From a virus: a stretch of 64,000 nucleotides of DNA. Each line of letters starts with the position of its first letter. Within the stretch, counting starts at the first letter, position 1. Below the pieces are notes generated by a model. That model was not told the DNA's origin, did no database searches, and saw nothing but the letters and a program-made list of their open reading frames with translations. Where the stretch lies: positions 44,380 through 108,379 of IMG/VR virus record IMGVR_UViG_3300042731_003040; one strand, given 5' to 3'. Below are positions 33,018 to 49,126 of this stretch, in pieces. The position numbers were made by a program, and so were the translations under genes.

Positions 33018-33911
33018 ATGTCAGTCGCATTCTACAGAGGGCAACAGCTGGGTTGTGAAGACCTGAACATCTACCTGGAGAACGCCTCTGGGACTCCTAC
33101 CAATGCGGCCGAGATCTGGTACTCCCTTCACGATGTGACCACGGGGCAAGAGGTGTTGTTGGGGGTTCCTCGTCGATCTCCTGTCAACCCTTCCGTGGGG
33201 CACTACTACGCTAGTGTGATCATCCCTCTTGATGCGAACATTGGGAACTACCGGGTGAGGTGGTTCTTCCGGGAAACGGTGGGGGGTCCCATTCACGAAG
33301 TGGTCCAGGAATTCTCGGTCATCGACAAGGCAACGTGTCCTACCACTTCCTACACGGATTGTGAGACGGACATGATTCGTAGGTTGAGGATTCTGCTCCG
33401 AGACAACAATCCTGACCGAAACTACCATTTCAGACCCCCTACCCACGAAGCCACGATCAACCAGTACAACCAGGTCTTCGGATTCATTTGGGAGGATGAG
33501 GAGCTTCAGGAGTACCTGGCTAGGGGCATGGACATGATCATTGCTGCCCCGCCCAGGACTCCCTTCGCTTCCTGTGATCAGCTGGTGCAGTGTCGCCCTG
33601 AGTGGAGGACTCTCCTACTCAATGGGGCTATGATCCATGCTCTCTTGGCCTTGCAGATCAACTGGATTGCTGACGAATTCGACTACAGCATCGGGGGCGT
33701 GAGTCTGACCATCGACAAGTCGAGCAAGTACGAGAGCGCCTACAACAGTGTCAAAGACATGTTCAATGACCAGTTGGAAAAGGCCAAAAGCACGGTCAAG
33801 ATCGTTCGAGGACTGCAGCAGCCTCGCTACGGTATCGGAATTCGCTCGTCTTTCGGCCCTTACACAGGTCGGGGTGTGTTGAGTCCTCGAAAGTTTGTAG
33901 GTTTCGGTTGA
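33018..33911 (+). CDS. Putative head-tail connector / neck protein
   Basis: This 297-residue protein has an N-terminal Ig-like domain (about 1-105: NAAEIWYSLHDVTTGQEVLL, YRVRWFFRETVGGPIHEVVQ) like that of the preceding structural protein. A C-terminal helical domain follows (about 115-265: ETDMIRRLRILLRDNNPDRN, EWRTLLLNGAMIHALLALQI, SKYESAYNSVKDMFNDQLEK), which resembles helical connector proteins beneath the portal. It ends with a Gly/Arg-rich tail. The combination fits a neck protein that contacts the portal and carries an outer domain. Assignment is by fold pattern and position. Confidence 0.5.
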   Translation: MSVAFYRGQQLGCEDLNIYLENASGTPTNAAEIWYSLHDVTTGQEVLLGVPRRSPVNPSVGHYYASVIIPLDANIGNYRVRWFFRETVGGPIHEVVQEFSVIDKATCPTTSYTDCETDMIRRLRILLRDNNPDRNYHFRPPTHEATINQYNQVFGFIWEDEELQEYLARGMDMIIAAPPRTPFASCDQLVQCRPEWRTLLLNGAMIHALLALQINWIADEFDYSIGGVSLTIDKSSKYESAYNSVKDMFNDQLEKAKSTVKIVRGLQQPRYGIGIRSSFGPYTGRGVLSPRKFVGFG

Positions 33912-33913
33912 TA

Positions 33914-33936
33914 CCTAACCCCTTTGTGGGGTAAGG
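33914..33936 (+). promoter_or_regulatory. Hairpin that holds the ribosome site of the 33944 gene
   Basis: CCTAACCCC, loop TTTGT, GGGGTAAGG: stem with one A-A mismatch. The TAAGG in the 3' arm is the likely Shine-Dalgarno of the ATG at 33944 (7-base gap), so folding would hide it. Confidence 0.45.
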
Positions 33937-33943
33937 CTTTCGT

Positions 33944-34279
33944 ATGCCCGATGAGTCCAAGAAGAAACTGACTGTCAAAGATCCTGTTCCTAAGGAAGTG
34001 CTGGTTGTGTTGGAGCAGCTGGCTAAGGCTCGGGGGTCCTTGGCTGACCAGCTACTGGAGATGGAGCAGCGGAGGATCACTTTTTTGGCAGCTGCCAAAA
34101 GGGTTGAAGACCAGCGGAAAGCAGTTTTCGAGGAGATCTTGACTTCCCGAGGGCTGGCTCCCGGGACCCCTGTTAACATCTCCAGCTCGACTGGTGAGAT
34201 CACTCTGACGAGCCCTCCTGAGGGAGGTCATCCAGAGGAAACGTCTTCGGAGGAAACGCCTTCGGAGAAAACGCGCTGA
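33944..34279 (+). CDS. Small coiled-coil protein
   Basis: This 111-residue protein is helical in residues 15-80 (LVVLEQLAKARGSLADQLLE, TFLAAAKRVEDQRKAVFEEI), then has a short beta/Pro turn and a Glu/Thr/Ser-rich tail. The tail holds three ETPSEKT-like units (HPEETSSEETPSEKTR). The ribosome site is in a hairpin. The function is unknown; it may be a neck accessory. Confidence 0.55.
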   Translation: MPDESKKKLTVKDPVPKEVLVVLEQLAKARGSLADQLLEMEQRRITFLAAAKRVEDQRKAVFEEILTSRGLAPGTPVNISSSTGEITLTSPPEGGHPEETSSEETPSEKTR

Positions 34280-34296
34280 GTGAGCTTTCCTTTTTT

Positions 34297-34317
34297 GGAT
34301 TCCCTTGAGGGGAATCC
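34297..34317 (+). promoter_or_regulatory. Hairpin abutting the ATG at 34318
   Basis: GGATTCCC, loop TTGAG, GGGAATCC, ending at the base before the ATG. The GAGGGG that serves as Shine-Dalgarno lies in the loop and 3' arm. A T-run (TTTTTT) precedes the hairpin. Confidence 0.48.
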
Positions 34318-35694
34318 ATGCCCTACGCTACTCAGCGAGACAGAGATCCGCACCAGCTGGAAATTGAGAGCTCCCCTTACCCGGTCTCTCCGTTGAATTT
34401 GTCCATGACTTCTGGCTACGAGCCGGGGGTCATCAATTTGACGTGGGATGACGCGGCCCAACTGTTTCAGAATTCTCGGTTTCAGATCATCGGGGTCAAC
34501 GTTTGGAGGTCTTTCGACAGCGAGTTCGGTCCTTACGATCGGGTCACGACCTTGCCGGTGGGATCTAATTTCTGGCAGGACCGTACAGACAACGTGCTGA
34601 TTCCAGCTGAGGATGTTTCGGATTCGTTCATCCTCAGAGGAGTTAACTCGACCGGATCGGACTACGGTAGGTACGTATTTCAGACCCAGTATCCTATCGT
34701 GAAGGCAGGTTCCCAGGCGATACCGGCAAACAGTCCTGATGATGTGTTGGTGATGGTGGATGGGGTCCAGGCTCGGGTAAAGCGAGTTGATGGGTTCGCC
34801 AAAGAAGTCGAGCTGGATACCACCAAATACTACAACACCGAGAAGCAGAACCAGGATACCCCTGTCTATCCGGGGGACAACAGCGTGGTCACCTGTGCCT
34901 ATCGGTACAACCGAACGCTTCTGAAGACAGACCTAGCACAAAGGGTCTTCTACAGAGTTACCACGGTAGGTCTTCCTGAGGCTTCTGATCTGTCGGCCGC
35001 TTGTTGTGAGGATCTTCGGGAGACGCCTTTGGAGCGGGCTCCTGTGACCAGCACCTCAGAGATTGAGAAGCTGGACTACATCTGGAGGGAAGGTATTCGA
35101 CGCAATCGTTGGATTCTGTTCCAGGGGGGCGAGCGAGTGAAGGTCTTCATCAAGAAGCATGTAGGGCCTATTTGCCCATGCCGAGGTCCTCACTACGAGA
35201 GTTTTCATCAGCCCAAGAATGATTGCGAGCTGTGTTTTGGGGCGGGTATTTTGGGAGGGTATGAAGGCCCCTACGATATCATCATTGCTCCTGACGATGC
35301 TGAGCGTAGGATTGCTCAACGGGACGTTGGTCGAACCGTGGAACATACCTACGAGGTCTGGACGGGTCCTTCCCCTCTCCTAAGCCAGAGAGACTTCTTG
35401 GTTAAGATCAACGGGGAGCGCTACTCAATTGGAGCCGTACGGTTTCCGTCCAATCGAGGAATGGTGTTGCAGCAGCATTTCAATATCAGCCGTTTGGACG
35501 AACAGGACATTCGTTACAGGGTCCGGGTAACGGCTCCTTGTGGGGTGTCTGCCAACGTGGCGGGAGTTGGTCGAGCTCTTCCTGGCATACCTCCTGGCAG
35601 TAATGCGTCTGTCCCCCTCACTGAGAAGTGCAACATTCCTAATGAGCGTGAGATCAGAGGCCGCACTGTGACCTGGAAGAACATCACGTTCTGA
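34318..35694 (+). CDS. Structural protein with FnIII-like domain and zinc-knuckle
   Basis: This 458-residue protein begins with an FnIII/Ig-like part (about 20-125: GVINLTWDDAAQLFQNSRFQ, VNVWRSFDSEFGPYDRVTTL). A second beta domain lies at about 130-215. A Cys cluster at about 285-310 (CPC, then CELCFGAG) reads as a zinc knuckle. The C-terminal part (330-458) is beta-rich with a Cys pair (TAPCGV, EKCNIPNE). Proteins with a CPC...C..CxGxG insertion occur in the neck region of other large phages. Likely a neck or tail-completion structural protein; exact role unknown. Confidence 0.55.
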   Translation: MPYATQRDRDPHQLEIESSPYPVSPLNLSMTSGYEPGVINLTWDDAAQLFQNSRFQIIGVNVWRSFDSEFGPYDRVTTLPVGSNFWQDRTDNVLIPAEDVSDSFILRGVNSTGSDYGRYVFQTQYPIVKAGSQAIPANSPDDVLVMVDGVQARVKRVDGFAKEVELDTTKYYNTEKQNQDTPVYPGDNSVVTCAYRYNRTLLKTDLAQRVFYRVTTVGLPEASDLSAACCEDLRETPLERAPVTSTSEIEKLDYIWREGIRRNRWILFQGGERVKVFIKKHVGPICPCRGPHYESFHQPKNDCELCFGAGILGGYEGPYDIIIAPDDAERRIAQRDVGRTVEHTYEVWTGPSPLLSQRDFLVKINGERYSIGAVRFPSNRGMVLQQHFNISRLDEQDIRYRVRVTAPCGVSANVAGVGRALPGIPPGSNASVPLTEKCNIPNEREIRGRTVTWKNITF

Positions 35695-35700
35695 TTACCT

Positions 35701-36213
35701 ATGCGGCCTCCTAAAGTCAAAGTTGGCCGAGTCAACCTCAAGCCTTTGCTCCCTCCCGGGAGTCTGGAGACATTTGATGCTCAGAAGGTCCTTCGGTCTA
35801 TTTCCAGGGAGGTGGTGAAGCAGCTCAGAGACAAAATCCTTCAGGAGCCTTTCTCGGACCGGGCCAAAGTAGCGTTGAGCAAGGCCATAGGTGTCACGGT
35901 GGGGCCCCGGAGCATCACTATCACAGCCAAGCACCCGGCCTTCAAGCCTCTACTGGAGGGACGCAAAGCCAGACAGATGACCTGGTTGACCAAGGCTAAG
36001 CGCCCCATTCCCATCATCACAGAGGACGGTGAGCTGATCTTTCGTTCGGCTACTCCTCGATCGATGCAGAGGGGCAGTTGGTATCATCCTGGAAGGTCTC
36101 CCACGACTGTCATTGAGCGTGCCCGAAAGGAGGCTCGAAAGAGCGTAAAGAAGAGAATAGTCAAGGCTTTAGCTAGCCACGTACGTAAGACGTACAAGAA
36201 GGGATCCAGATGA
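35701..36213 (+). CDS. HK97 gp10-like tail completion/neck protein (putative)
   Basis: This 170-residue protein is basic. A mixed first half (LRSISREVVKQLRDKILQEP, VALSKAIGVTVGPRSITITA) is followed by a conserved-looking SMQRGSWYHPGRSPTTVIER and a very basic helical end (ARKSVKKRIVKALASHVRKT). The W(Y)HPG-x-x-P...AR pattern is typical of HK97 gp10-type proteins, which sit at the head-tail joint. The assignment rests on this motif and on position in the neck region. Confidence 0.55.
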   Translation: MRPPKVKVGRVNLKPLLPPGSLETFDAQKVLRSISREVVKQLRDKILQEPFSDRAKVALSKAIGVTVGPRSITITAKHPAFKPLLEGRKARQMTWLTKAKRPIPIITEDGELIFRSATPRSMQRGSWYHPGRSPTTVIERARKEARKSVKKRIVKALASHVRKTYKKGSR

Positions 36214-36214
36214 A

Positions 36215-36766
36215 ATGAGTGGTGGTATGGTTGTTTTGGGCAACGTCACGGGGACTCACTTGATAGAGGATATTCAGGTGTCTGTGCCTTATCAGGTGGC
36301 TGTGACGCTCACACAAGAAGACGTTGTAAGGTCTCGTGACTTGTGGGTTGCTCTTCAGCAGAGGTTCATAGTCAAGCTCCGAGATTTTCGTCAGGTACCG
36401 AATCCTCCTAGATCGAATAATGCAACCTCGGCAGATTCTTCAGATCTGTTGAGACTGCAAGAGGAGAATCGGAAGCTTCAATCCGAGCTGAGGCAGTCGA
36501 ATCAGCGGACCGATGGTCTCGAATACAAGCTGGATGCCATCCTAGCGGCCCTAGGAAAGCTTTCTACGGTATCCCCTAGGGGAGAGACCGCTCCCGTTGA
36601 AAAGCCTCTCAGTGAGGCTGTGGGGGGTGACACGCCCATGTTCCTTCCGGAGTTTTCAGGGACTGAGTCGGAGGCTCGTATCAAGGTCAAAACTCAGCAG
36701 GAGGAGAGTGGCAGGGTACAGGAGGCGGCCGCTCTGCTGAGGAGGCTTCGCCAGCAAGAGAAGTGA
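36215..36766 (+). CDS. Coiled-coil neck-region protein
   Basis: This 183-residue protein starts almost at the previous stop. Residues 1-65 are beta-rich (MVVLGNVTGTHLIEDIQVSV), residues about 78-115 form a coiled coil (LLRLQEENRKLQSELRQSNQ), and the rest is Pro/Glu/Gln-rich and disordered, ending with a basic helix (AAALLRRLRQQEK). Unknown function; the coiled coil suggests an oligomer. Confidence 0.52.
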   Translation: MSGGMVVLGNVTGTHLIEDIQVSVPYQVAVTLTQEDVVRSRDLWVALQQRFIVKLRDFRQVPNPPRSNNATSADSSDLLRLQEENRKLQSELRQSNQRTDGLEYKLDAILAALGKLSTVSPRGETAPVEKPLSEAVGGDTPMFLPEFSGTESEARIKVKTQQEESGRVQEAAALLRRLRQQEK

Positions 36767-36801
36767 TTCTTTTGATAGCGTTGGAATGACAGAGGTACGT
36801 T

Positions 36802-37494
36802 ATGGATCCCAAATGGAAGGCTGTTTCCGTCCCTACCAGCAAGACGGCTTGTTCCTGTGACTCTGGAAAAGCTAAATGGCCTTCCAGTTTGGAGGCAGTG
36901 TGGCAGAATCCCACTGCTTACGACGCTTTGGAGGACGGCCCTTCCTACATGCCCACGAAGACAGCCAGTACAACGGATCGGGCGGCTGTAGCCCGAATGG
37001 TTCAGGCCAATACGTACGCTGGGCAAAAGTTGGCTGACGAGGTGGGGGGAACCAGGTTAGTATCTCTGCTGACGGTCATGAAGGCTTTGTACCTGATCCA
37101 CCAGACTCATCACTGGAGGACCAACGGGGCGTCCTACTATGCGGACCATTTGTTGTTCCAGCGGATCTACGAAGAGTCTCTGGAGTACATCGATGGGATG
37201 GCAGAGCGGGCTATAGGGACGTCAAACAACCCTTGGGTGATCTGTCCTATGAAGTTGGCCAAAGGTCAGCTCAATGTCGTACACTTCTTCTGTGAGGGCA
37301 ATTCTCAACCGAGCCCTGAGCAAATGGTCAACATCAGCCTCAAAGCGGAGCTGGCTTTCTTGGCTTTTCTGAAGCAGGTTGTAGAGGCTATGAGGCAAGA
37401 GGGAAGCTCGACGGATGGCGTTGAGGACCTGATTCAGGGAACCGCCAGTAAGCATGAAGAGTTCGTTTACCTGCTGCAGCAGCGGTCCAGGTAA
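36802..37494 (+). CDS. Dps/ferritin-like protein
   Basis: This 230-residue protein has a four-helix ferritin-like core from about 60 to 225. The segment from 97 to 140 aligns without gaps to the E. coli Dps ferroxidase region: THHWRTNG (Dps AHWNMRG), ADHLLFQ (VHEMLD), and YIDGMAERAIG (HLDTMAERAV). By that alignment His104, His116, Asp131 and Glu135 equal Dps His51, His63, Asp78 and Glu82, while Dps Asp67 is Gln120 here. Dps proteins store iron and protect DNA from oxidation, forming 12-mers that may also bind DNA. Residues 1-55 are an extra N-terminal part with a CSCDSG cluster. GAGG precedes the ATG. Finding it inside the neck operon is unusual. Alternative: a ferritin-fold structural protein without iron activity. 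Confidence 0.72.
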   Translation: MDPKWKAVSVPTSKTACSCDSGKAKWPSSLEAVWQNPTAYDALEDGPSYMPTKTASTTDRAAVARMVQANTYAGQKLADEVGGTRLVSLLTVMKALYLIHQTHHWRTNGASYYADHLLFQRIYEESLEYIDGMAERAIGTSNNPWVICPMKLAKGQLNVVHFFCEGNSQPSPEQMVNISLKAELAFLAFLKQVVEAMRQEGSSTDGVEDLIQGTASKHEEFVYLLQQRSR

Positions 37495-37529
37495 AATCCA
37501 AATCCAGAATACATCAGACGAGGATACAG

Positions 37530-38540
37530 ATGAGCAAGAAAGAAGAAGGGCTTACTCTTGGGGTAGGTCTAGACATCGGGACCATGAACCTTGTAGGGGC
37601 CCGGGAGGTGGAAGGCAAGACCGTCTTCACACAGGTACGGGACGCCTTTCTGGACCTTGATCCGGAAGCGAAACGATCTCTCAAGATGTCGGGAGTGAAC
37701 TTTCTGGAGAGCAACGGGTCCTTGGTGGTGGTTGGGGACAGTGCCTTGACCATGGCCAACCTTTTCAAGAGGGAGGCTCGTCGTCCTTTGAGTCGAGGGG
37801 TGATCTCGGCTGGGGAACTGGATGCTCAAGAGATCTTGAACGTCTTGTTGCTTGAAGTGGTGGAGCAGGCCCGGGAAGAGGGGGAGCACTGCTTCTACTC
37901 AGTTCCTGCGCCGCCTCTTGATGATCCAGGTCAAGACATCATTTTCCACACTGAGATCTTTCGTAAGATCATCAGGGGGCACAAGTACACGGCGCATCCA
38001 GCCAACGAGGCGATGGCCATCATCTTCAGCCAGTGCGTTGAGGAGCAGTTCTCGGGTTTGGCGGTGAGTTTCGGGGCCGGGATGTGCAACGTGGCCTTGG
38101 CCTACAAGGCTGCTTCTGGAATGGAATTTTCCTTGGCTCGGGGAGGAGACTGGGTGGATTCTCAGTCGGCCCGAGCGGTGGGCAAGACTGCTAGTCAGAT
38201 GTGTGCCATCAAGGAAAAGGGAGTGAACCTGGCTCAACCTCAAGGTAGAGAACAGGAGGCTCTGGCTCTCTACATTCGCTCTTTGATCAACTACTGTCTC
38301 CAGAACATCGTTGCTCAGTTCAAGAAGGTTCGAAACGATGTGTCGTTGCCTGATCCGATCCCCTTTATCGTTTCGGGAGGATCTTCGATGGCCGGCGGGT
38401 TCTTGGAGTTGTTCAAGGATGAGTTCCAGCAGGTCAAAGGGTTCCCCATCGAAATCAGTGAGATTCGAGCAGCCGCCGATCCCATGACAGCCGTGGCCGA
38501 GGGGTTGTTGGTGCTCGCCAAGCAGGAACACGAAGAGTAG
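37530..38540 (+). CDS. Actin/MreB-like ATPase
   Basis: This 336-residue protein has the three ATP motifs of the actin/Hsp70 superfamily in order and spacing: phosphate-1 GLDIGTMN (13-20), phosphate-2 VSFGAGMCNV (179-188) and adenosine IVSGGSSMAGGF (280-291). Other MreB/FtsA-like points are RPLSRGVISAGELDA (85-99), HPANEAMAIIF (156-166) and GGDWVD (205-210). The length equals MreB (about 340). Actin-like proteins polymerise with ATP and move or place cargo in cells. The next gene starts one base after the stop (GTG 38542), so it is translated with neck and tail genes. It lies 35 bases after the Dps-like gene. Whether it polymerises cannot be read from sequence. Confidence 0.82.
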   Translation: MSKKEEGLTLGVGLDIGTMNLVGAREVEGKTVFTQVRDAFLDLDPEAKRSLKMSGVNFLESNGSLVVVGDSALTMANLFKREARRPLSRGVISAGELDAQEILNVLLLEVVEQAREEGEHCFYSVPAPPLDDPGQDIIFHTEIFRKIIRGHKYTAHPANEAMAIIFSQCVEEQFSGLAVSFGAGMCNVALAYKAASGMEFSLARGGDWVDSQSARAVGKTASQMCAIKEKGVNLAQPQGREQEALALYIRSLINYCLQNIVAQFKKVRNDVSLPDPIPFIVSGGSSMAGGFLELFKDEFQQVKGFPIEISEIRAAADPMTAVAEGLLVLAKQEHEE

Positions 38541-38541
38541 C

Positions 38542-39717
38542 GTGTACTACTTTCTCACCAACTCCCTTAGGAACCGTTTGATTCTGGAGCTGCAGGATTC
38601 GTTTTCGAAGCATGCTCTCTACAAAAAGATCGTTCCTAACATCCAGAACAAGTACGCCTTCAAAGAGCGGCCTCAGTTTGGGGTAGTGGTCAAGGGAGCC
38701 AGCGGAAACAAAATCCAGCTCTCGGCGGACAACTTCATTGGGGAAGTACTGAGCCATGTCATGCTGGCGTATGTGGGGGAACATCAGTTTCCCTTGGAGT
38801 GGGTGAGAGAGGACCTGAATAGAGTTAGGGCAGCAGGAGGTTTCCCTTCTCCTCCGGGGATCTACTATATCGAGGTTCTTCAGGCTCCAACCAATCCGAC
38901 AGAGCCTGGGTTTTTCGCTATCGACCCTCTTTACACGCAGCCTGATGAAGCGGTTCTGGTTTTCCAGTCGGGAATTGAGAAAGAGGCCCAGCTTCAGAAC
39001 GTACCCGTTCAGGACACTGTGCGGATCTGGGAGAACAACAAGCGGCTTCTCATCGAGGGAACGGACTACATCGTCAATTATGAGACGGGGGCGGTGGCTG
39101 TCTTGCAGTCGTTCCCTCCTGGGACTACTTGGATTGCTCAATACCGTTATGCTGGGGAGTCCCAAGGTCCTATTCCCTTCTACTGGAACAGGGCGGACTT
39201 CGAGAGCATTCCGGGGGTGGTACTGGCTTTTGGAAAGAGAGCTGTTGAGGGGGATACGGTGGCTGTGGTTGTCTACCAGGATAGGGTAGGCACAGCCAAG
39301 GCTTATGGAGGGCAATTCGAAGCCTCTTTTGATTTGGATGTTATGGCTCGTGATACCGAGCAGGTGGGGGAAATCGCCGACATGATCTTCATGTACCTCA
39401 TGGCGGAGAAGCGTCCGATTCTGAGTGAAGAAGGTCTAGAGATCATGGACGTCTCTATGGGGGGTGAGGCTGAAGAAGTGATGGATGAGAGTGGAGACAA
39501 CTACTCCTATACCGTTTCCATGTCGGTACAGATCCAGTCGGTGTGGGAAATTCATATTCCGCAACCTCTCACCATCAGCAGAGCTACTCCTGTGACAGCT
39601 GCGGGGGATTCCGATCCTTCTCAACCTTCAGGACTTGTGGCCAGGGCGGACAAGCTGTTTTTCCAGACCACCCCCATTCTGGCCAACAGAAATCCAGATT
39701 ACGAACGCATCGGATGA
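38542..39717 (+). CDS. Neck or tail-terminator structural protein (putative)
   Basis: This 391-residue protein starts at GTG one base after the actin-like gene stop. It has a helical N-terminus (RNRLILELQDSFSKHALYKK), a helical/mixed first domain and a beta-rich middle (VPVQDTVRIWENNKRLLIEG, TDYIVNYETGAVAVLQSFPP). A C-terminal half with RDTEQVGEIADMIFMYLMAE and YSYTVSMSVQIQSVWEIHIP follows. Position just before the sheath gene is that of T4-like tail terminator or sheath-stabiliser genes, but sequence identity cannot be judged. No motif is decisive. Confidence 0.5.
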   Translation: MYYFLTNSLRNRLILELQDSFSKHALYKKIVPNIQNKYAFKERPQFGVVVKGASGNKIQLSADNFIGEVLSHVMLAYVGEHQFPLEWVREDLNRVRAAGGFPSPPGIYYIEVLQAPTNPTEPGFFAIDPLYTQPDEAVLVFQSGIEKEAQLQNVPVQDTVRIWENNKRLLIEGTDYIVNYETGAVAVLQSFPPGTTWIAQYRYAGESQGPIPFYWNRADFESIPGVVLAFGKRAVEGDTVAVVVYQDRVGTAKAYGGQFEASFDLDVMARDTEQVGEIADMIFMYLMAEKRPILSEEGLEIMDVSMGGEAEEVMDESGDNYSYTVSMSVQIQSVWEIHIPQPLTISRATPVTAAGDSDPSQPSGLVARADKLFFQTTPILANRNPDYERIG

Positions 39718-39720
39718 ACC

Positions 39721-40155
39721 ATGCCCAAGTACACTTTCGAGTGTGATTCCTGCAACGTTAGGTTCACTCGGACTCTCAAAATGGGAGAACACCTGACCTG
39801 CGCCTGTCCCAAGTGCAGAGAGCAGGTTCCTAGGTTTTGGGATGGACAGGGGTTTTCCTTCGATTTTGCCGAGGGAGGGAAGGCCCCGGCAAACAGTGGG
39901 GTGACCAAGCACGATTATCCGACGGCGGACCAGGCTGTGGGAAGGTCCGCCGACAAACGGTGGGCAGAGTACCGAGAGCGGGAAAAGGTGAAAGAAAAGG
40001 TTCGGGAGAGGGGGGGTTCCAGAGCCTTGAATCGGACAGACTCCCCGGAAATAAACGGAAATCGTAGCTATATCCAGTACACAGCCATAGGAGAAAAGGA
40101 GCTCCAGGGACGTCGGGAAGTGGTGGGTAAGCTTAAGCAGCTAGAGCCTCGATAA
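39721..40155 (+). CDS. FmdB-type zinc-ribbon protein
   Basis: This 144-residue protein begins MPKYTFECDSCNVRFTRTLK with Cys8, Cys11, and then Cys27, Cys29 and Cys32 (CACPKC), the four-cysteine ribbon of the FmdB family. The remaining two thirds are basic and Glu/Arg-rich with NRSYIQYTAIGEKELQGRRE. FmdB-like ribbons are common in phages and their roles are mostly unknown; regulatory and structural roles have been suggested. The start lies 3 bases after the previous stop. It closes the neck cluster before the 120-base gap. Confidence 0.65.
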   Translation: MPKYTFECDSCNVRFTRTLKMGEHLTCACPKCREQVPRFWDGQGFSFDFAEGGKAPANSGVTKHDYPTADQAVGRSADKRWAEYREREKVKEKVRERGGSRALNRTDSPEINGNRSYIQYTAIGEKELQGRREVVGKLKQLEPR

Positions 40156-40167
40156 ACTATCGTTTGA

Positions 40168-40183
40168 CTCTACTAATGTAGAG
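40168..40183 (+). promoter_or_regulatory. Hairpin upstream of sheath gene
   Basis: CTCTAC, loop TAAT, GTAGAG, 13 bases after the stop of 39721. A TTGACT overlaps its 5' arm (40164-40169) but has no matching -10 at 17 bases. May end the neck transcript or mark an operator. Confidence 0.35.
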
Positions 40184-40199
40184 CGGTTCTGCTGCTCAG

Positions 40200-40219
40200 A
40201 TTCAGATGTAGACGTAGAT
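40200..40219 (+). promoter_or_regulatory. Shared intergenic motif upstream of tail sheath
   Basis: ATTCAGATGTAGACGTAGAT, 18 of 20 bases like 10111-10130. CAGATGTAGAC also recurs exactly at 52797-52807. The rest of the 120-base gap (40156-40275) holds TAAAAT at 40240-40245, a fair -10 without a -35, and the AGGAG ribosome site at 40265-40269; no gene is seen in it. Confidence 0.42.
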
Positions 40220-40275
40220 CAAAAGCCCTAGATCCAGATTAAAATTGGCATTTTTCCTGCGAATAGGAGTGTCCA

Positions 40276-43200
40276 GTGTCTCTAGGACCATTGACGACCT
40301 ACGTTCCCCCTGGCATCTACACCCGCACCCTGACCGAGGTCAACGCAGCCAACTTGGTGGCTGGCCTTCGGATCCCCGTTGTCATTGGCGTGGGACAGGA
40401 ACAGCTGGAGCAATCCGACCTGGAAATGGTCAGGGGTAGCTCGGCTACTCTGGACCAGCAAATCGTCAGCGAGGACGTCTCACAGTCTTTCGTGGTGGAC
40501 AACTCCAATCCTCTGGTTCCCGTTCTGGGACCCACGGATGGGACCTTCACGACGGTTCGAGTTCGCAACTACCCCATTGTGGATGGACAGGGCTTTGGCC
40601 GAGTGACCAACGACGTTCGTTCGGTCAGTGCCACGGTCAACGGGACGCCTGTGGCCATCGGAAGTGTGCAGGGTACCAACGGATACATCACCTTCCAGGT
40701 ACCGCCTCAGGTGGGGGACGACGTTCGGGTCACCTATTACTTCCACCGAGGAGACACTGCTTTCACGGATACCGTGTCTGACCAGGTGACTCCGACCACA
40801 GCGGACCTGACCACTCCTGCAGTGGCCAACTTCGCTTTCACGACAGGTATCAGCGACACCTTCGTGATCGGAGTGGATGGTACTGACAGTACCGTTGTCT
40901 TTACCGAGGGCATTCACACAGCTCTAGCCGTCAAGACCATGATCGACGCCGCTCTGATCACTGGATTGACTACGGCAGTCTTCACGGACAACGAAGGCAA
41001 TGACCACGTCACTCTGACGGCGGCTCAGAAGCTGGTGATTGGTACGGGCAACGCTAATGGAGCTTTGGGCTTCACGGCGGGGGCTTCCACCAGTCGAAAC
41101 GTCAACTTCCGGGTGTTCCAGCGTCCTATCGTGGATGGAACGGATGGAGGGATCACCACCACAGACCCAAGCAAGGTTGTGGTGCTAGTGAACAACTCTC
41201 AGGTCATTCCCACTGCTGTGGATGGCACCAACGGAATCGTGACTTTGCCGATGGCCCCTGCGGCTGGAAGCACCGTCACAATTCAGTACTGGGCCAACAC
41301 GTGGCAGGACACCTTCGACTACTTGCCCAACACGCTGGTTTCGACGGTGACCCGTTGCGGGTTCTCGCCTGGTCGTTCGGACTACATCCAGAACCAGGAT
41401 TTCGTCATCTCCAATCCGAGCGAGGATGTCTCGGTGGTCCACTGGGGCTCCAGTGTGGCTGTTTCCTCAGTCCTGAGAACGGCTGGGGCAACCGTCTTCG
41501 ACGAGACGCAGATCCTGGCCTCTTTGGTCGATGACAAGATGTACTTGGCGGAATGCACCCGGGTGGTAGACACCACGGTCGTTCCTGCCGAGACATCTCC
41601 CAATGAGTTCCTGCTCCCGGCTATTCCGACCACAGGCAACGGTCGAGACACGCCGCTTGGGAGCACACTCTACAACACGGTCACCAATGGCCGGATGAAC
41701 CTGAACACGGATCGTCCCGATCTCATCACGGTCTACACTGGTCGAGATCTTCGGGATGCGTTGGGTCGGGATCCCATCGATGTGATCGAAGTGGATGCCC
41801 TCAATCGCCAGATCACGCTCAAGCAGGCCGTTCCTCCAGATCACAACGCCTACGCCACGTTCTGGTATAGCCGTCTGTCTGACGACACCTACGTGCTGAC
41901 CAACAAGGTGGCTGGAGCCGTTGGTACAGGAGAGTACGAGGTATTCAGTTCCGTTCAGAACAACAACCTCTTGCAGGTTCTGTTCGGAAGCAAGACGGCT
42001 ACCGAAGTCATTCAGTGGCCTCGGGGAGTGGAGAGTATTCCAGATGCCTTCCACACGGGTACGGGAACTGGGTCTCCAGTGGCCGAGACTGTCACTGTTA
42101 CCTTCGCTTCTGAGGCAGCCAAGAATGCTGCTTACACTAACGAAGGGGCCGCTCCCTACGAGTTCTTCGCTGGAACTTCGGATCAGTGGGTGACCGTGCT
42201 CAACGGCGTGACCTACCCTACGGACCTGGATACAGCCGTGGTTGGTCGAATCGTTGGGACTCGGGTGGCTGTGGATGGTTCCGACCAGATCACCTTCACC
42301 ACGGGCGTCAACGACGTTCTGAACCTGACCATCGACGGGACGGACTACACTGTGACTTTCTCAGCAGGCGCTACTGCTGTGGGGCCAGTGGGAACGCCTG
42401 GGACGGTCCTTGCTCAGATCGCTGCGGTCATTCCGACCACACCTGAACTGGTTCAGTTGGGTCCCTCGGGATCTGATGTGATGTTCATCATCCCCTCGTC
42501 TTCGACGCCTGCGGCTTTGCCTGGTGGCTTCGACCATGTCTCTGCGGTCAGCGTCCGTCAGGGTACTGCCGAGACGACTTTGGGCTTTGTGCCTTTCCAG
42601 TCGGCCTCGGGGACTCCCACGGCAACCAACAAGCCGGCCACCCTTTTGGGTACGGAGACCGGGGACTTCATCATCACTCTTGGCGTGAACGACGAGTTCA
42701 AGTTCCGGGTCGATGGATTGGAGTACACAGTCACTCTGACGGCGGGCACTCGTACGGCGACCCAGGTGGTTTCGGACATCACGGGTGTGGTTGCTGGGGT
42801 GGCTTCTGTGGGTACCTTGGCCAACTTGGACAAGGTTCGACTCACCAGTACCACCACCAACTCTGGCTCTAGGATCGTCATTCTCGATGGCTCAGCCAAC
42901 GATACGCTGGGCTTCACCGAAGATGATTCGGCGAGCTACACGCCTGTCACGGCTCAGGAAGTGGTCAACGAGCTTCTGGCCACGGCCAGTTTCCAGACCG
43001 ACGGGGTGGCTTACGTTTCCACCATCAATGGAAGCCAGTACGTAACCATTGAGTCCAGTGATGTGGGAGCCACTACCCCATCGGCATCGAGCATCGCTTT
43101 CACGTCGGTTTCCAACTCGGCATTCAACACTACCACGGGTACAGGCATCGAGCCTGGCACCAGTGGAGACAATGGTGAGGACGCTCGGGACATTTACACC

Positions 43201-44535
43201 GTTGCCACGGACCGAACAGACGGCCTGGGTTCTGGTGGAACCGGTGTTCCGGGGCAGACCTACACGGATGCCAAGACGGGCCTGAGATTCACGGTTCTGG
43301 AGTCTGCCACGGGGTCCTACACTCCTGGAGGCACCTTTACTCTGACTGTCAGCCCGACCTGGAAAGTCCATCCTTCGATTCCAAGCCTGCAGTTGGGCGG
43401 TCTCGAAGTCATCGTCACGGACACGGTGGGTGTGGGAGTGGACGACACGGCCAATGTTCAGGCGTTCAATCCTGGTGGTAGCGAGCCAGCTGTCGGAGAC
43501 TTCTACTACATCAGCTATCAGTACCTGAAGCAGGATTTCTCGACTCGGCTGTTCCAAACCTTCAAGGTCATCGAGGCCAACTTTGGTCGTTTGAGTCCTG
43601 AAAACAGGGTCACCTTGGCTAGCTTCCTGGCCATTCTGAATGGTGCGGTCCTCGTGGGTATCAAACAGGTGCTCAAGGAGTCCAACACCAACCAGGCCAG
43701 TGACGCTTCGTTCTTGGCGGCCCTTCAGGAGCTGACCATTCCGCTGCCTGGCAACGTCAAGCCGGATGTATTGGTGCCTCTCACGACCTCTACGACGGTC
43801 TATGGGGCTCTGATGCAGCACTGTGAGGTTCAGTCCAACATTCGCAACCAAGCGGAAAGGATGGGCTTCATTGGGTTCGCTTCGGGAACCTCTCCGATCA
43901 CAGCCCAAACGATTGCCAAGAGCTTGCTCAGCAACCGTATCGTGGCTGTGTACCCGGACTCGGCAGTCATTACTGTGACCAATGAACTGGGTGAGAGCAG
44001 CGAATCTCTGGTTGACGGCACCTTCCTGGCTTCAGCTTTGGCTGGTGCGATCGTCAGCCCGGCTGTGGACGTGGCGACTCCGTACACGAGGCGACAACTT
44101 GTCGGAATCGACCGGCTTCCTCGGGTTTTGGACCCGGTGGAGGCAAGCCAGACAGCAGTGGCTGGTATCACGGTCCTGGAGGATCTCGCAACAACTGTTC
44201 GAGTCAAGCAGGGTCTGACCACGGACATGTCCACGATTCTGACTCGCCTTCCCACGGTGACTCAGATTGCGGACTTCGTGCAGCAACAGTCCCGAGCTAC
44301 CTTGGATGCCTTCGTGGGCACCAAGTTCCTCAGCCAAAGGACGAACGAAGTCGAAGTCTCGATGACTTCTCTGTTCAACCAGATGTTGCAGGCAGAGATT
44401 GTTGGAGGCTTCACGGGAATCAACGCAGAGGTGGATCCCAACGATCCGACCATCATGCGGTTCGAGGCGTTCTACGCTCCGATCTTCCCGCTTTTGTACA
44501 TCGTCCTCACATTCAACCTAAGAGCTAACGTCTAG
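40276..44535 (+). CDS. Tail sheath protein (large, modular)
   Basis: This 1419-residue protein is the probable contractile sheath subunit. The start is GTG with AGGAG 6 bases before it. The N-terminus (LTTYVPPGIYTRTLTEVN) and C-terminal domain (from about 1080: RLSPENRVTLASFLAILNGA, IPLPGNVKPDVLVPLTTSTT, then TRLPTVTQIADFVQQQSRAT and LLYIVLTFNLRANV) follow sheath form. T4 gp18 has 659 residues, so this one is more than double. The extra mass is beta-rich insertions: modules at about 186-264, 665-770 and 785-878 all have a TTGxxDxF-like strand, a VTF strand, a helix and an LGF end. Codon use resembles that of the capsid gene and a strong terminator follows, so high expression is likely. Sheath identity is from form, size class and position before the tube gene. 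Confidence 0.7.
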   Translation: MSLGPLTTYVPPGIYTRTLTEVNAANLVAGLRIPVVIGVGQEQLEQSDLEMVRGSSATLDQQIVSEDVSQSFVVDNSNPLVPVLGPTDGTFTTVRVRNYPIVDGQGFGRVTNDVRSVSATVNGTPVAIGSVQGTNGYITFQVPPQVGDDVRVTYYFHRGDTAFTDTVSDQVTPTTADLTTPAVANFAFTTGISDTFVIGVDGTDSTVVFTEGIHTALAVKTMIDAALITGLTTAVFTDNEGNDHVTLTAAQKLVIGTGNANGALGFTAGASTSRNVNFRVFQRPIVDGTDGGITTTDPSKVVVLVNNSQVIPTAVDGTNGIVTLPMAPAAGSTVTIQYWANTWQDTFDYLPNTLVSTVTRCGFSPGRSDYIQNQDFVISNPSEDVSVVHWGSSVAVSSVLRTAGATVFDETQILASLVDDKMYLAECTRVVDTTVVPAETSPNEFLLPAIPTTGNGRDTPLGSTLYNTVTNGRMNLNTDRPDLITVYTGRDLRDALGRDPIDVIEVDALNRQITLKQAVPPDHNAYATFWYSRLSDDTYVLTNKVAGAVGTGEYEVFSSVQNNNLLQVLFGSKTATEVIQWPRGVESIPDAFHTGTGTGSPVAETVTVTFASEAAKNAAYTNEGAAPYEFFAGTSDQWVTVLNGVTYPTDLDTAVVGRIVGTRVAVDGSDQITFTTGVNDVLNLTIDGTDYTVTFSAGATAVGPVGTPGTVLAQIAAVIPTTPELVQLGPSGSDVMFIIPSSSTPAALPGGFDHVSAVSVRQGTAETTLGFVPFQSASGTPTATNKPATLLGTETGDFIITLGVNDEFKFRVDGLEYTVTLTAGTRTATQVVSDITGVVAGVASVGTLANLDKVRLTSTTTNSGSRIVILDGSANDTLGFTEDDSASYTPVTAQEVVNELLATASFQTDGVAYVSTINGSQYVTIESSDVGATTPSASSIAFTSVSNSAFNTTTGTGIEPGTSGDNGEDARDIYTVATDRTDGLGSGGTGVPGQTYTDAKTGLRFTVLESATGSYTPGGTFTLTVSPTWKVHPSIPSLQLGGLEVIVTDTVGVGVDDTANVQAFNPGGSEPAVGDFYYISYQYLKQDFSTRLFQTFKVIEANFGRLSPENRVTLASFLAILNGAVLVGIKQVLKESNTNQASDASFLAALQELTIPLPGNVKPDVLVPLTTSTTVYGALMQHCEVQSNIRNQAERMGFIGFASGTSPITAQTIAKSLLSNRIVAVYPDSAVITVTNELGESSESLVDGTFLASALAGAIVSPAVDVATPYTRRQLVGIDRLPRVLDPVEASQTAVAGITVLEDLATTVRVKQGLTTDMSTILTRLPTVTQIADFVQQQSRATLDAFVGTKFLSQRTNEVEVSMTSLFNQMLQAEIVGGFTGINAEVDPNDPTIMRFEAFYAPIFPLLYIVLTFNLRANV

Positions 44536-44546
44536 TTCGAAGGACG

Positions 44547-44574
44547 GGGTGCCAAGGGATAGCCTTTGGCACCC
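44547..44574 (+). terminator. Strong terminator after tail sheath
   Basis: GGGTGCCAAGGG, loop ATAG, CCTTTGGCACCC: a twelve-pair stem with one G-T pair, 12 bases after the sheath stop. It is followed by TGTGAGGG, not a T-run, so termination may be partial. Confidence 0.6.
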
Positions 44575-44605
44575 TGTGAGGGTTCCTTCCTAGGGGTCTG
44601 TAAAT

Positions 44606-44623
44606 CCTGTCTTTTTTGGCAGG
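44606..44623 (+). promoter_or_regulatory. Hairpin with T6 loop
   Basis: CCTGTC, loop TTTTTT, GGCAGG, 84 bases before the helicase ATG. Like the hairpin at 29117-29137 it carries a run of six T in the loop. Confidence 0.35.
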
Positions 44624-44627
44624 AGCA

Positions 44628-44656
44628 TTCGCAGGCTAGGGCTCATGTGCTATACA
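44628..44656 (+). promoter_or_regulatory. Candidate promoter of the helicase gene
   Basis: TTCGCA at 44628-44633, a 17-base spacer, then TGC plus TATACA at 44651-44656 (extended -10). It lies 51 bases before the helicase ATG and after the sheath terminator, so the helicase may have its own transcript. Confidence 0.48.
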
Positions 44657-44682
44657 TGAACCTCGTAGGTCTATGCCGTTTT

Positions 44683-44702
44683 GGTGTAATGATCTTATCA
44701 CC
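44683..44702 (+). promoter_or_regulatory. Imperfect palindrome just before helicase ATG
   Basis: GGTGTAATGATCTTATCACC is an imperfect palindrome (7 of 10 positions match). It ends 5 bases before the ATG at 44708 and lies just downstream of the candidate promoter, a typical operator or translational-operator place. Confidence 0.38.
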
Positions 44703-44707
44703 TAGGT

Positions 44708-47700
44708 ATGGAGATGGACGCCTCTACCGATTACGACTTCCGTGTTCAGGCAGCTCAGGACGAGGACATCAGCGAGCTAGAGGCCGCTGAGTACATCGTT
44801 TTCAACTTGGCTCTGGATACCTATTTCCGGTACATCGAAGAGGTCACAGGGGAGGAGCCCCCAGAGGATGACGAGAATACTCTGGATGAGGCCCCCGAGG
44901 GTGACACCACGAAGTTGGATTCTCTGGCTTCGGATGGCATTCGACTCTTGAAGCGAGTGGATAGCCGATTCCAAGAAGATGCGGTGTCCATGCTGGATAC
45001 CAACCTGCCCTCTGAGACCCACAAGAAGATGCTTCAGAGGGCGTTTCGGCGCCCAGCCAGGTCAAGGGACGCTATCTCTCGTCGAGCTCTCTTGATGCGA
45101 ACTGTGCTCTCCAGAGGAGGGCACAAGACCGTCAAAGCGGTCTTCCACAAAACTCGACCCCTTCGTGCTGTCAAAGATGCCTTGGCAGATGCCATGATGG
45201 AGGATGCAGGGCCGGCTTTGCAGAGATTTGCAGCGGTACCGATTCGGAATCCTCGGATCAAGGCTTGGATCAAGGCAGCAGCTTCCGTTACCAGGGAAAG
45301 GGATCAGCCCAATGCTGCTCCTCTCAACCCCGTGGAGGTGGCCTCTTCGGTAGGTGCCGATCATGCGGAGGCACTTCGGAAGGACACTGTTGACGAAACA
45401 GGTCTCCAAGGGGCGGAAGAGCAAGCCGTTGCTGGGGATGAAAGGGAGAACAGGATTTCCGACATCGAGTCGGAGGCTGCCGAAGCTGCCGCTGAGGTTC
45501 TGGCTGATGCCGGTGAGCCCGATGAGGTTTTGACTCGTAGTGAGGTCATTGGCATTGCTACCGCTGCAGCGGTGGCAGCTTCTACCGACCCTACCGACCC
45601 TACCAACATCCCAGAGCCTCTTAAGCGTCTAGATGACGAGCAGAGAGCAGCGGCCATGACTGACGGCAAGGTCTTGGTGGCGGCAGGGGCCGGGTCTGGA
45701 AAGAGCTGGACTTTGGTGGCCCGGGTCGAGCATCTCATCAAGGATCGAGGCGTCAATCCTGCCAGGTGTCTAGTCACTTCCTTCAACAAGAAGGCCGCTC
45801 TAGAGCTCGACTACAAGATCGGCAATGTCATTGGTGGGGACATGGCTGACGCTATGTCTATTGGGACCCTTCACGGGTTGTTCCGGCAGTTCATCGACAA
45901 GTATGGGACTCAGGAAGAGCGTATCGCTGTGGGGGTTGATAGGAAAGGTCCCAACGGGTTCGTGAAGGGAGGCGATTCTGTTGCTTCGGCTGTCAACCGG
46001 GTGTGGCGCAAGTGCTATGCCACCCAGAAGGCTGATGGGACGTGGAAGGATGCTGACGCTCCTAGGGTCAAGGATGGAATGCGTGCCAAGACCCAGTGGG
46101 CTGGAAACAACGTGACTCCTGCCCAGGCCATAGAGAAAGCGGCCACGCCAGAAGAGGCTCAGCTGGCTCAGTGGTATGAGTGGTACATGGGTTTCAAAGG
46201 GGACCTGGGGAAGGATTGGGAACCCCCTTGTGGTCGAAAGCTCAGGGAGTGGGAAGGGTTCCTAGCAAAGAAGCGTCTTGGGGGAAGGATTCGTCTTGGA
46301 GACTTCGACGACATGTTGGGTATCTTCAAAGACATCCTCAAGAGACAACCGGAAGTGAAGGCCACTGTCCAGGCGGCCTTCGACCACATTTTGGTTGACG
46401 AGTGTCAGGATCTTAATGAGACCCAGAATGAAATTATCATGATGATGTCCGAACACATCACTGATGGTTCTGATGGAAAGTCTCTTTGGATGGTGGGCGA
46501 CGATAAGCAGTGCGTGGGTGTAGACACGCCTGTCCAGGTTTCAGCAACCGAGACTGTGCCCGCGGGGGAGCTTCAAGCGGGTGCCACTGTGTTGGCTTAC
46601 CGCAATGGCAAATTGCGTCCCCAGAAGGTGTTGCACGCCAAACATTCCGATTGGCGCACTGGGTACAAGGTCACTACGGAAAGCGGTAAGACGCTTACTA
46701 TGTCTCCCAACCACAAGATTTGGGCACAAGGTCCCGTTCTTGAGGAAAGGCAAGTAGCCGTCTACCTTATGTATCGTCAGGACAAGGGCTTCCGGGTTGG
46801 GATCACCAACAAGTGCCACGACGAGGATTACTACAACTCGTTTGGGGGTCGAGCCTTCATGGAGAAGGCCGAGCGTATGTGGGTTCTTACCGTATGCCAA
46901 GACCGTGAAGAAGCCTTGTTGAAGGAGGCTTCCTACTCTTTGGAATACGGTGTGCCTACGGCAGTGTTCGAGGGGGCCAGCAGGGGTATCAACCAGGATC
47001 GGTTGGATGCCTTGTTTGAGACTTTTGGACATAACGGTAGGAAACTGCTGGCTGAAAAGACTCTGGGTTTTGACCTTCCCCACTGGGTTAGCCAATCTTA
47101 CACGAAGCATGGGCGTCTCCGTAGAACCGTGCAGATGACGGCTCATGGATCAAAGGGAAGCCAGGTTGCTTTGGAGTGGTCTGGGGATGACCTGGACGGG
47201 AAGTTGGAAGGCATCCAGTTCTCCAAGCAAGCTAATGGGCGTCGCCGTCTCCGCAAATGGTTCACCAATTATCGAGAGGCTCTTGAGTTCGCTGAGCAGG
47301 TGGCAGAAAGGACTGGAGCTGCGTTGTCTCGGCGTTTGTCTACTCCTGAAGGGCCTGTGCGGTTGCTCACTGCTTCTGGGTTGTTCTCTGGAATGCAAGT
47401 GGTTGTTAGGGACGATGAGGATCCCGAAGCCGTTGCTTTGGAAACCATCGTGTCGGTGGAACCCGTTTCCGAGACGGCCTTCGTGGATCTGGACGTGGAA
47501 GATGCTTCCAACTTCGTCGGAGGCGGTATTCTTTCCCACAACAGTATCTACGCCTTCCGTGGAGCTCGTCCTGATCTGTTCACCGCCCTGGATGGTAAGG
47601 AAGGCTGGAAGACCCGATCCATTCGAACCAACTACCGCTGCCCCCCTGAGATTGTCGAGGCCGCCAACCTTCTCATTGCGAACAACGAGGACCAGATCCC

Positions 47701-49126
47701 CATGGAGGCCACCCCCAATCCAGCTCGGATTCGAGGGATGGCAAGCATGCGGGTAGAGCAGATGCAGGACTGTGAAGGTACGGCTATCTTGGCAGCCAAC
47801 ACCATCAAATCCGCTCTTGATGGGGACAGTTGCGAGATCTCTGACAATGCGGTCCTGTGCCGTACCAATGCCGAATTGAACATGTTCGAGACGGCGTTGC
47901 TGCTTCGAGGCATCCCGTACGCTCGCAAAGGAGCCAGCAGCTTCCTTGGGTCTCCAGAAACGGCGGCCTTCTTGGGCTACATCAAGATGGTTTCAGGGGG
48001 CACTGACTTTGAGGGGCAGCAGAAGGCTCTTCGATCTATTCTCAACACGCCGAATCGGTTCTTCGTAGCCCCTGATGCAGCCAAAGCTGCTGTAGACCAG
48101 GCGCTTAGAGAGTACGCTTCAATGGAAAGGATGCCTATCAAGAACGTGGACCCGATGGAAGCCTTGGGTGATGATCGGTTCCGGCGTTCTTTGGCACATG
48201 CCTTGACCAAGATTGACCGTCCTCGTAGCCGGCGAGAAGAGTTCAAGCTGAGCAAGACGGTCGAGAAGTTAGATGCTTTCTGGGAAGAGGTAGCGGATTT
48301 GAGAGAGACCGCTCAAGCCGAGGAGACCACAACTCACCAATTGTTCGACGCCGTTCTCAGTGTCTCAGGAATCGAGTTGGAGGTGGATCCTAACACGGGA
48401 AGGATCACGGGAGAGAAGCCGGTTACTTTCCGAGAAGCCGTTTCCAACAACTTGAAGGACCAGGGTGGGGAGGACGATGACGCAGGGGCTGAGGATGAAG
48501 ACAGCTCCATGCAAGGGTTGGGGAACATTTCCTTCCTCTACGAGCTGGCCAAGCCTGATCCGAATGACCCTGCAGACAAGGCAGCCGATCCTCGAACTCC
48601 CTTTGGATTCCGAGCCAAGATGGAACGAATCAAGGAGCGGGCAAAGGAGCTTCGCTACGACATCACGGCTTGGGACAAGCAACAAGAGGCCAAGCCTCCT
48701 GAAGAGCGACAGCCGCCTCCTGGGGTGTACCTTGGGACCGTGCACTCCACGAAAGGTGCACAGTGGAAGAACACCTTTGTTCAGATGCCCGCTGGCAAGT
48801 TCCCTTTCCAGCCGCCTGCCAAGCCTGGGTCTGAGCCGCCTCCCCCAGAGGTGATCGAGAAGGAGATGCAGCAGGAGCGAAGGCTGGGCTATGTGGCGAT
48901 CACTCGGGCTATCGACAACCTGACCATTCTCTGTCCAAACGAGGTCAACGGGAAGCCTGCAGGGGTTAGTCCTTTCGTAGCCGAAGCGGGGCTACACCTT
49001 GGGGAAAACATCGGAGCAGAGCCCACCTCTCCTGAAGAAGAGCCTCCTGGAGAGCCTTCAAAGGAGGCTTCCGATGATTCGGGTTCGGATTGGGATGGTT
49101 ACGAAGCTGACTACGAGAGGTCCTAG
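44708..49126 (+). CDS. UvrD/Rep-like SF1 helicase with intein
   Basis: This 1472-residue precursor contains an SF1A DNA helicase interrupted by an intein (602-945). Helicase motifs in order: Q-like LDDEQRAA (about 310), Walker A AAGAGSGKS (Lys332), motif II VDECQD (563-568), motif III GDDKQ split from SIYAFRGA by the intein, motif IV IRTNYRCPPEIVEAAN, motif V VHSTKGAQWKN (about 1345) and motif VI YVAITRA (about 1395). After splicing about 1128 residues remain. The first about 300 residues are an added acidic and helical part not seen in UvrD (about 720 aa). The start is at ATG 44708, or 44714 with TAGGT upstream. It lies between the sheath and tube genes, an unusual place for a repair or replication helicase. 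Confidence 0.9.
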   Translation: MEMDASTDYDFRVQAAQDEDISELEAAEYIVFNLALDTYFRYIEEVTGEEPPEDDENTLDEAPEGDTTKLDSLASDGIRLLKRVDSRFQEDAVSMLDTNLPSETHKKMLQRAFRRPARSRDAISRRALLMRTVLSRGGHKTVKAVFHKTRPLRAVKDALADAMMEDAGPALQRFAAVPIRNPRIKAWIKAAASVTRERDQPNAAPLNPVEVASSVGADHAEALRKDTVDETGLQGAEEQAVAGDERENRISDIESEAAEAAAEVLADAGEPDEVLTRSEVIGIATAAAVAASTDPTDPTNIPEPLKRLDDEQRAAAMTDGKVLVAAGAGSGKSWTLVARVEHLIKDRGVNPARCLVTSFNKKAALELDYKIGNVIGGDMADAMSIGTLHGLFRQFIDKYGTQEERIAVGVDRKGPNGFVKGGDSVASAVNRVWRKCYATQKADGTWKDADAPRVKDGMRAKTQWAGNNVTPAQAIEKAATPEEAQLAQWYEWYMGFKGDLGKDWEPPCGRKLREWEGFLAKKRLGGRIRLGDFDDMLGIFKDILKRQPEVKATVQAAFDHILVDECQDLNETQNEIIMMMSEHITDGSDGKSLWMVGDDKQCVGVDTPVQVSATETVPAGELQAGATVLAYRNGKLRPQKVLHAKHSDWRTGYKVTTESGKTLTMSPNHKIWAQGPVLEERQVAVYLMYRQDKGFRVGITNKCHDEDYYNSFGGRAFMEKAERMWVLTVCQDREEALLKEASYSLEYGVPTAVFEGASRGINQDRLDALFETFGHNGRKLLAEKTLGFDLPHWVSQSYTKHGRLRRTVQMTAHGSKGSQVALEWSGDDLDGKLEGIQFSKQANGRRRLRKWFTNYREALEFAEQVAERTGAALSRRLSTPEGPVRLLTASGLFSGMQVVVRDDEDPEAVALETIVSVEPVSETAFVDLDVEDASNFVGGGILSHNSIYAFRGARPDLFTALDGKEGWKTRSIRTNYRCPPEIVEAANLLIANNEDQIPMEATPNPARIRGMASMRVEQMQDCEGTAILAANTIKSALDGDSCEISDNAVLCRTNAELNMFETALLLRGIPYARKGASSFLGSPETAAFLGYIKMVSGGTDFEGQQKALRSILNTPNRFFVAPDAAKAAVDQALREYASMERMPIKNVDPMEALGDDRFRRSLAHALTKIDRPRSRREEFKLSKTVEKLDAFWEEVADLRETAQAEETTTHQLFDAVLSVSGIELEVDPNTGRITGEKPVTFREAVSNNLKDQGGEDDDAGAEDEDSSMQGLGNISFLYELAKPDPNDPADKAADPRTPFGFRAKMERIKERAKELRYDITAWDKQQEAKPPEERQPPPGVYLGTVHSTKGAQWKNTFVQMPAGKFPFQPPAKPGSEPPPPEVIEKEMQQERRLGYVAITRAIDNLTILCPNEVNGKPAGVSPFVAEAGLHLGENIGAEPTSPEEEPPGEPSKEASDDSGSDWDGYEADYERS
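46511..47542 (+). other. Intein in helicase motif III, with GIY-YIG-like middle
   Basis: The 344-residue insertion begins at Cys602 (CVGVDTPV, block A) and ends with ...VGGGILSHN at Asn945, followed by Ser946 (SIYAFRGA), so the first residue is Cys, the penultimate residues are His-Asn and the +1 residue is Ser. Block B is TMSPNHKI with His669. The middle (about 685-750) reads VYLMYR ... GFRVGIT ... R715 ... WVL ... E740, resembling a GIY-YIG nuclease, with YGVPT after it. LAGLIDADG motifs were not seen. The insertion site between GDDKQ and SIY is within an ATPase motif, the usual type of intein site. Confidence 0.88.

Follow-up and report, generated by a model that had tools for sequence, protein, structure and literature searches.

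Genes of the neck block

The window analyzed here is a stretch of 64,000 nucleotides (positions 44,380 to 108,379 of IMG/VR virus record IMGVR_UViG_3300042731_003040). It belongs to a virus record of 108 kb, and an identical stretch is also found in a 437 kb virus contig. A same-strand module of neck and tail genes runs from 31 to 61 kb of the window and includes the following features.

34318..35694, + strand: neck/virion structural protein encoded 5' of the adaptor gene (synteny; phrog_1004 'virion structural protein', E 3.4e-4)
36215..36766, + strand: putative adaptor gene, 183 aa (AlphaFold model; tail profile picks out actin neighbors; about once per genome)
36584..36763, + strand: conserved tail formed by the adaptor's final 60 aa, with F[IL]P ... 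A..LR.LR (tail profile)
36802..37494, + strand: Dps-like ferritin-fold protein, 230 aa (PF00210, PDB Dps chains)
37530..38540, + strand: Volactin-family actin-like ATPase, 336 aa (PF25216 profile, nucleotide-site motifs)
38542..39717, + strand: predicted tail-terminator/gateway (neck) protein, 391 aa, GTG start (AlphaFold model, Foldseek, VIA-align)
39721..40155, + strand: FmdB-like zinc-ribbon protein, 144 aa (Zn_ribbon_8, E 1.8e-7, below the curated cut-off)
40276..44535, + strand: large conserved structural-type protein at the end of the neck block, probably the tail sheath (synteny; weak DUF2460 match)

The four open reading frames from the Dps-like gene to the FmdB-like gene had been predicted to form one tight unit. 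All four are on the + strand, separated by exactly 35, 1, and 3 bases, and the gaps are indeed short. They are not specially short, however, as intergenic gaps are mostly 1-38 bases across the module and closeness alone thus singles out no group of genes. The adaptor gene, with 1 base to the gene upstream and 35 bases to the Dps gene, is joined as closely. No promoter or terminator signals delimiting the four genes as a unit rose above shuffles. PHROGs were uninformative for most of the neighbors as well as for actin and the 391-aa neck protein. A DNA helicase-like gene (44708-49126, 1472 aa; phrog_1967, E 3e-78) is encoded within the structural block.

The 'neck' label originally given to the 391-aa protein agrees with its AlphaFold model, which has a terminator fold with an inserted beta domain (about residues 131-204), and Foldseek gave the same result. 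Using VIA-align, the model matched the neck of phage 812 (8q01_M, Z 11.8), a Pa193 neck and tail entry (9b42_G, Z 11.7), and lambda gpU (Z 8.3), with an rmsd of 3.4-6.5 over the three comparisons. The protein models as a tail terminator/gateway neck protein. The FmdB label was borne out by a Zn_ribbon_8/FmdB-like match, but with a score under the curated cut-off.

The predicted actin-like identity of the 37530-38540 product was confirmed by a match to Volactin (PF25216) with an E-value of 5e-69 and 233.7 bits (cut-off 35) over residues 12-330. Against solved structures, the actin family profile found MamK, other actin-like proteins, FtsA, and MreB, with MamK the best match (PDB 5jyg, 5ljv; E 8.6e-12). 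The phosphate-1, connect, and adenosine motifs are kept across relatives 27-71% identical. The phosphate-2 Asp is replaced by Ser (SFGAGMCN in the window), as it is in every row of actin alignment A1 except L066, which has Gly. Archaeal members from the Thermoplasmatota carry S[FVIM]GAG[ML]TN and bacterial members likewise have Ser, and the window's actin contains the shared S-x-G-[AS]-G-[ML]-x-N motif. Because the Ser is common to phage and archaeal members, it characterizes the family and serves well as a mark of membership. MamK, in contrast, keeps the Asp (VDIGAG), and the Volactin profile is a far better match to the phage protein than MamK. By sequence, the phage actin belongs to the Volactin family. 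Absence of the Asp could mean that hydrolysis is slow or does not occur.

The volactin of Haloferax volcanii (HVO_2015), a member of the same family over its full length, makes dynamic filaments in vivo (PMC10869688), and by analogy the phage actin is likely to form filaments too. HVO_2015 has a cellular shape function while the phage volactin is encoded in a neck operon with an adaptor. In two relatives inteins with LAGLIDADG domains split the actin gene at different nucleotide-site motifs, before GDWID (L059:7989-10091) and at GAGM (L073:6369-8480); such placement is typical of ATP sites under functional constraint.

Dps in one clade of relatives

To place the window's genes, we compared 72 viral loci encoding a related actin, with near-copies set aside for distinct counts; the contigs of these relatives may be incomplete, and L079 was left out of two structure-model alignments. 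Conserved co-occurrence of Dps and actin, on which the original prediction had staked itself, was found. Dps is encoded between the adaptor and actin in most of the 72 loci (46 distinct), and the order adaptor, Dps, actin, neck protein, FmdB-like protein, and the 40276 gene is kept in about 46 distinct relatives. In neck-module phages, the tail-terminator gene always comes next after actin. As every module neighbor is conserved too, synteny alone does not make Dps and actin a unit.

The Dps-like assignment was upheld by matches to Ferritin (PF00210, E 2.6e-5; at 24.6 bits, just above the cut-off of 24.5) and to PDB Dps chains (E 1.9e-8). Inter-subunit ferroxidase residues H104, H116, D131, and E135 are invariant in 19 sequences. 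An N-terminal peptide, W.DPT.YD....GPPYLP, is joined to the ferritin domain by a variable linker and is present in 50 of 60 relatives by a strict pattern. No other ORF in the searched loci matches this pattern, and a motif search gave no docking partner.

In the midpoint-rooted actin tree Dps is restricted to a single supported clade, where 46 of 49 rows have it. Four changes in total are needed (one gain plus three losses, for instance), the direction of change resting on the outgroups without it. Dps is missing in three loci inside the clade; two of these are the contigs L038 (398 kb) and L046 (411 kb), in which no ferritin-like gene was found at any position. The outgroup LR745208 shares the neck block and codes for a short Dps without the N-terminal peptide about 142 kb away. 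Dps also evolves faster, with 33-41% identity to its relatives versus about 60-71% for actin. With starts estimated, the gap from adaptor to Dps has a median of 364 bases in the relatives and is often hundreds of bases, and the gap from Dps to actin varies widely, being 60 bases or fewer in 23 of 45. Since Dps is clade-limited and absent in-position from the outgroups, it most likely joined an adaptor-actin pair that already existed. From these comparisons Dps is most likely a later, dispensable insertion between the two genes.

This distribution bears on the original prediction, in which Dps and actin jointly protect or organize DNA ends or capsids. That 46 of the clade's 49 rows retain the gene order is consistent with such a reading, as is the peptide on the clade's Dps, which the displaced LR745208 copy does not have. 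All outgroups, and the genomes L038 and L046, nevertheless keep actin and adaptor without Dps, and the faster divergence of Dps and its variable distance from actin also argue against a joint function, which we consider very unlikely. Organization of capsids late in infection may still hold, but protection of genome ends found no support.

Dps is probably a co-expressed passenger specific to the neck module. As a guess, its peptide may dock the protein to neck parts, and ferroxidase activity could protect particles or DNA from iron-driven damage. The ferritin fold and ferroxidase residues are common to other phage Dps proteins (PHROG 3636; Gratiaviridae), from which the window's Dps differs in its neck-module location and its conserved N-terminal GPPYLP peptide. 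A Dps-actin pair is not described in the jumbo-phage, huge-phage, and phage-Dps literature checked. The earlier statement that the combination has no parallel was too strong, however, as Dps genes are known from other phages (PMC8008677) and the prophage pair AlpA-AlpC joins a phage actin to an adaptor (PMC4446434).

The putative adaptor and its C-terminal tail

The 36215-36766 gene was omitted from the unit first proposed, yet its recurrent pairing in sequence comparisons makes it the deep, long-standing partner of actin. In deeper relatives the gene directly 5' of actin is kept while all other neighbors change. Proteins encoded at this position in the deep relatives have unrelated N-terminal parts and a common C-terminal end. 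The AlphaFold model of the window's adaptor has a confident small beta head (residues 1-59), a coiled coil (74-116), a disordered linker with FLPEF, and a terminal helix (168-181). The head has no Pfam family over the cut-off and no match to a DNA-binding family. A GINS B-domain-like assignment for the head was rejected (best fold match E 0.64, not significant). The amphipathic character of the terminal helix was also set aside as evidence, with a moment of 0.41 versus 0.27 for controls, 17% of which reach 0.41.

We trained a profile of the 60 C-terminal residues on the near clade only and ran it against 1,937 ORF tails from divergent loci. The top 14 matches were all the neighbor of actin or a displaced homologue. 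The best match per locus adjoins actin in 10 of 12 divergent representatives, one of them doubtful (L080, where the match is probably to a spurious ORF); 0.77 were expected, and 0 of 200,000 random draws gave this result. The tail is short, matches in the most distant loci are individually weak, and the weakest (E 0.05-7) were counted by position only. The profile found no tailed neighbor in L071 or the Hyphomicrobiales loci. Ten phage genomes or contigs of 277-512 kb each have one clear tail, beside actin, with a single weak extra match (E 0.02) in one of them. A head-only profile matches only relatives with the neck module. With the head confined to these phages, the tail is the part common to proteins with unrelated heads.

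The pairing extends beyond phages. Actin and a tailed neighbor are encoded in gas-vesicle clusters of Anaerolineae, with two GvpL/F in L088 and L128 and with GvpG and GvpO in L105 and L127. A Patescibacteria gas-vesicle cluster (L089, with GvpL/F) probably also has the adaptor-actin pair, judged by gene position and a tail match that is weak (E 7.3). In Acidobacteria and Omnitrophica it is the gene 3' of actin that bears the tail. No tail gene was found with the cellular Thermoplasmatota volactins sampled. One Thermoplasmatales MAG, G017, encodes both a cellular and a virus-like volactin (contigs C38 and C47), and only the virus-like copy has a tail adaptor beside it.

A proposed cargo system and its alternatives

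Actin-adaptor systems such as ParMRC couple a filament to cargo through the adaptor. Here, too, the adaptor gene adjoins the actin gene and the two are conserved together, as in ParMRC/AlpAC-type pairs. A conserved tail with a variable head makes the tail the natural actin-binding part and the head the cargo part. The pair is encoded beside structural genes of its putative cargo, the phage neck or the bacterial gas vesicle, so in phages the best candidates for cargo are late virion parts. We propose, at a probability of about 0.55, that the functional core is the adaptor with the volactin ATPase, in which the tail would bind actin, the head and coiled coil would hold late virion cargo, and filaments would position it. 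Contact would be made by the terminal helix and F[IL]P motif of the adaptor, probably with the filament or its end. The cargo, read from operon position alone, would most likely be head-neck or tail intermediates, which filaments would place or bring together as they polymerize. Dps, an active-type ferritin-fold protein whose gene entered between the other two in one clade, would be made at the same time and not be needed by the pair, and it may dock to neck parts through its GPPYLP peptide. Tail-actin binding, filament formation, and cargo identity are what we infer in this scheme.

A different cargo, DNA, is suggested by the nearest studied phage case. In Corynebacterium prophage CGP3 the adaptor AlpA is co-transcribed with the actin-like AlpC and the filament is coupled to cargo through it (PMC4446434). 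If the window's adaptor head likewise bound phage DNA, the actin would move genomes as in AlpA-AlpC or ParR-ParM, and the start of the L088 adaptor does resemble a winged-helix domain by eye. AlpA binds DNA and the Alp genes are early, whereas the window's pair is placed among neck genes, not replication genes, and its adaptor head matched no known DNA-binding family and no fold significantly. There is also no iteron- or centromere-like repeat array in 33900-45000, and only 1 base separates the adaptor from the gene upstream. DNA positioning is an unlikely role for the pair.

Alternatively, the actin-fold protein could act in neck and tail assembly as a non-filamentous ATPase or chaperone to which the adaptor carries substrates. 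HSP70 is a member of the actin superfamily, the phosphate-2 site is unusual, and in neck-module phages the tail terminator invariably follows. Against this, the nearest solved relatives, led by MamK, form filaments, and the family member volactin polymerizes in vivo. Volactin genes also occur within gas-vesicle clusters, as well as in archaea without phage genes. We therefore consider a chaperone role distinctly improbable and retain the filament-based cargo system as the preferred reading.

Extended to all these loci, that reading becomes a modular cargo system in which adaptors that swap heads and share only a tail would attach volactin filaments to very different giant assemblies, necks and virions in phages and gas vesicles in bacteria. 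We put forward this wider version tentatively, at somewhat below even odds; in it phages would gather or place virions with an actin counterpart of PhuZ. The jumbo-phage cytoskeleton is known for tubulin (PhuZ). Like PhuZ, which nucleus-forming jumbo phages are believed to use for positioning their material, the window's protein is a phage-encoded cytoskeletal candidate, but PhuZ has the tubulin fold and the window's protein the actin fold by profile. No tubulin-family gene (PF00091), and so no PhuZ-type cytoskeleton at this sensitivity, was found in 12 large phage records including LR745208 and LR756511. In this large family of giant phages, the position of a volactin-family actin gene in the neck block, next to a tailed adaptor, suggests that phages may use an actin of their own to handle new particles. 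In the literature searched we found no paper on volactin in jumbo phages or on an actin-like gene within virion-neck genes, and no report of an actin-like gas-vesicle partner. If true, a short tail that ties one actin family to both phage particles and gas vesicles would be a general cargo rule for prokaryotic actin-like filaments, and such a rule would predict partners from sequence alone.

Other genes were seen 3' of actin among the relatives. Two viral contigs have short mitochondrial-carrier-like ORFs directly after it (PF00153; L066:1246-1620 and L072:9014-9325). At distant loci a GT9/heptosyltransferase-like gene is found just 3' of actin, by Pfam GT9 in L061:9454-10713 and L087:9302-10606 and by weak PHROG matches and eye in L068:9003-10016.
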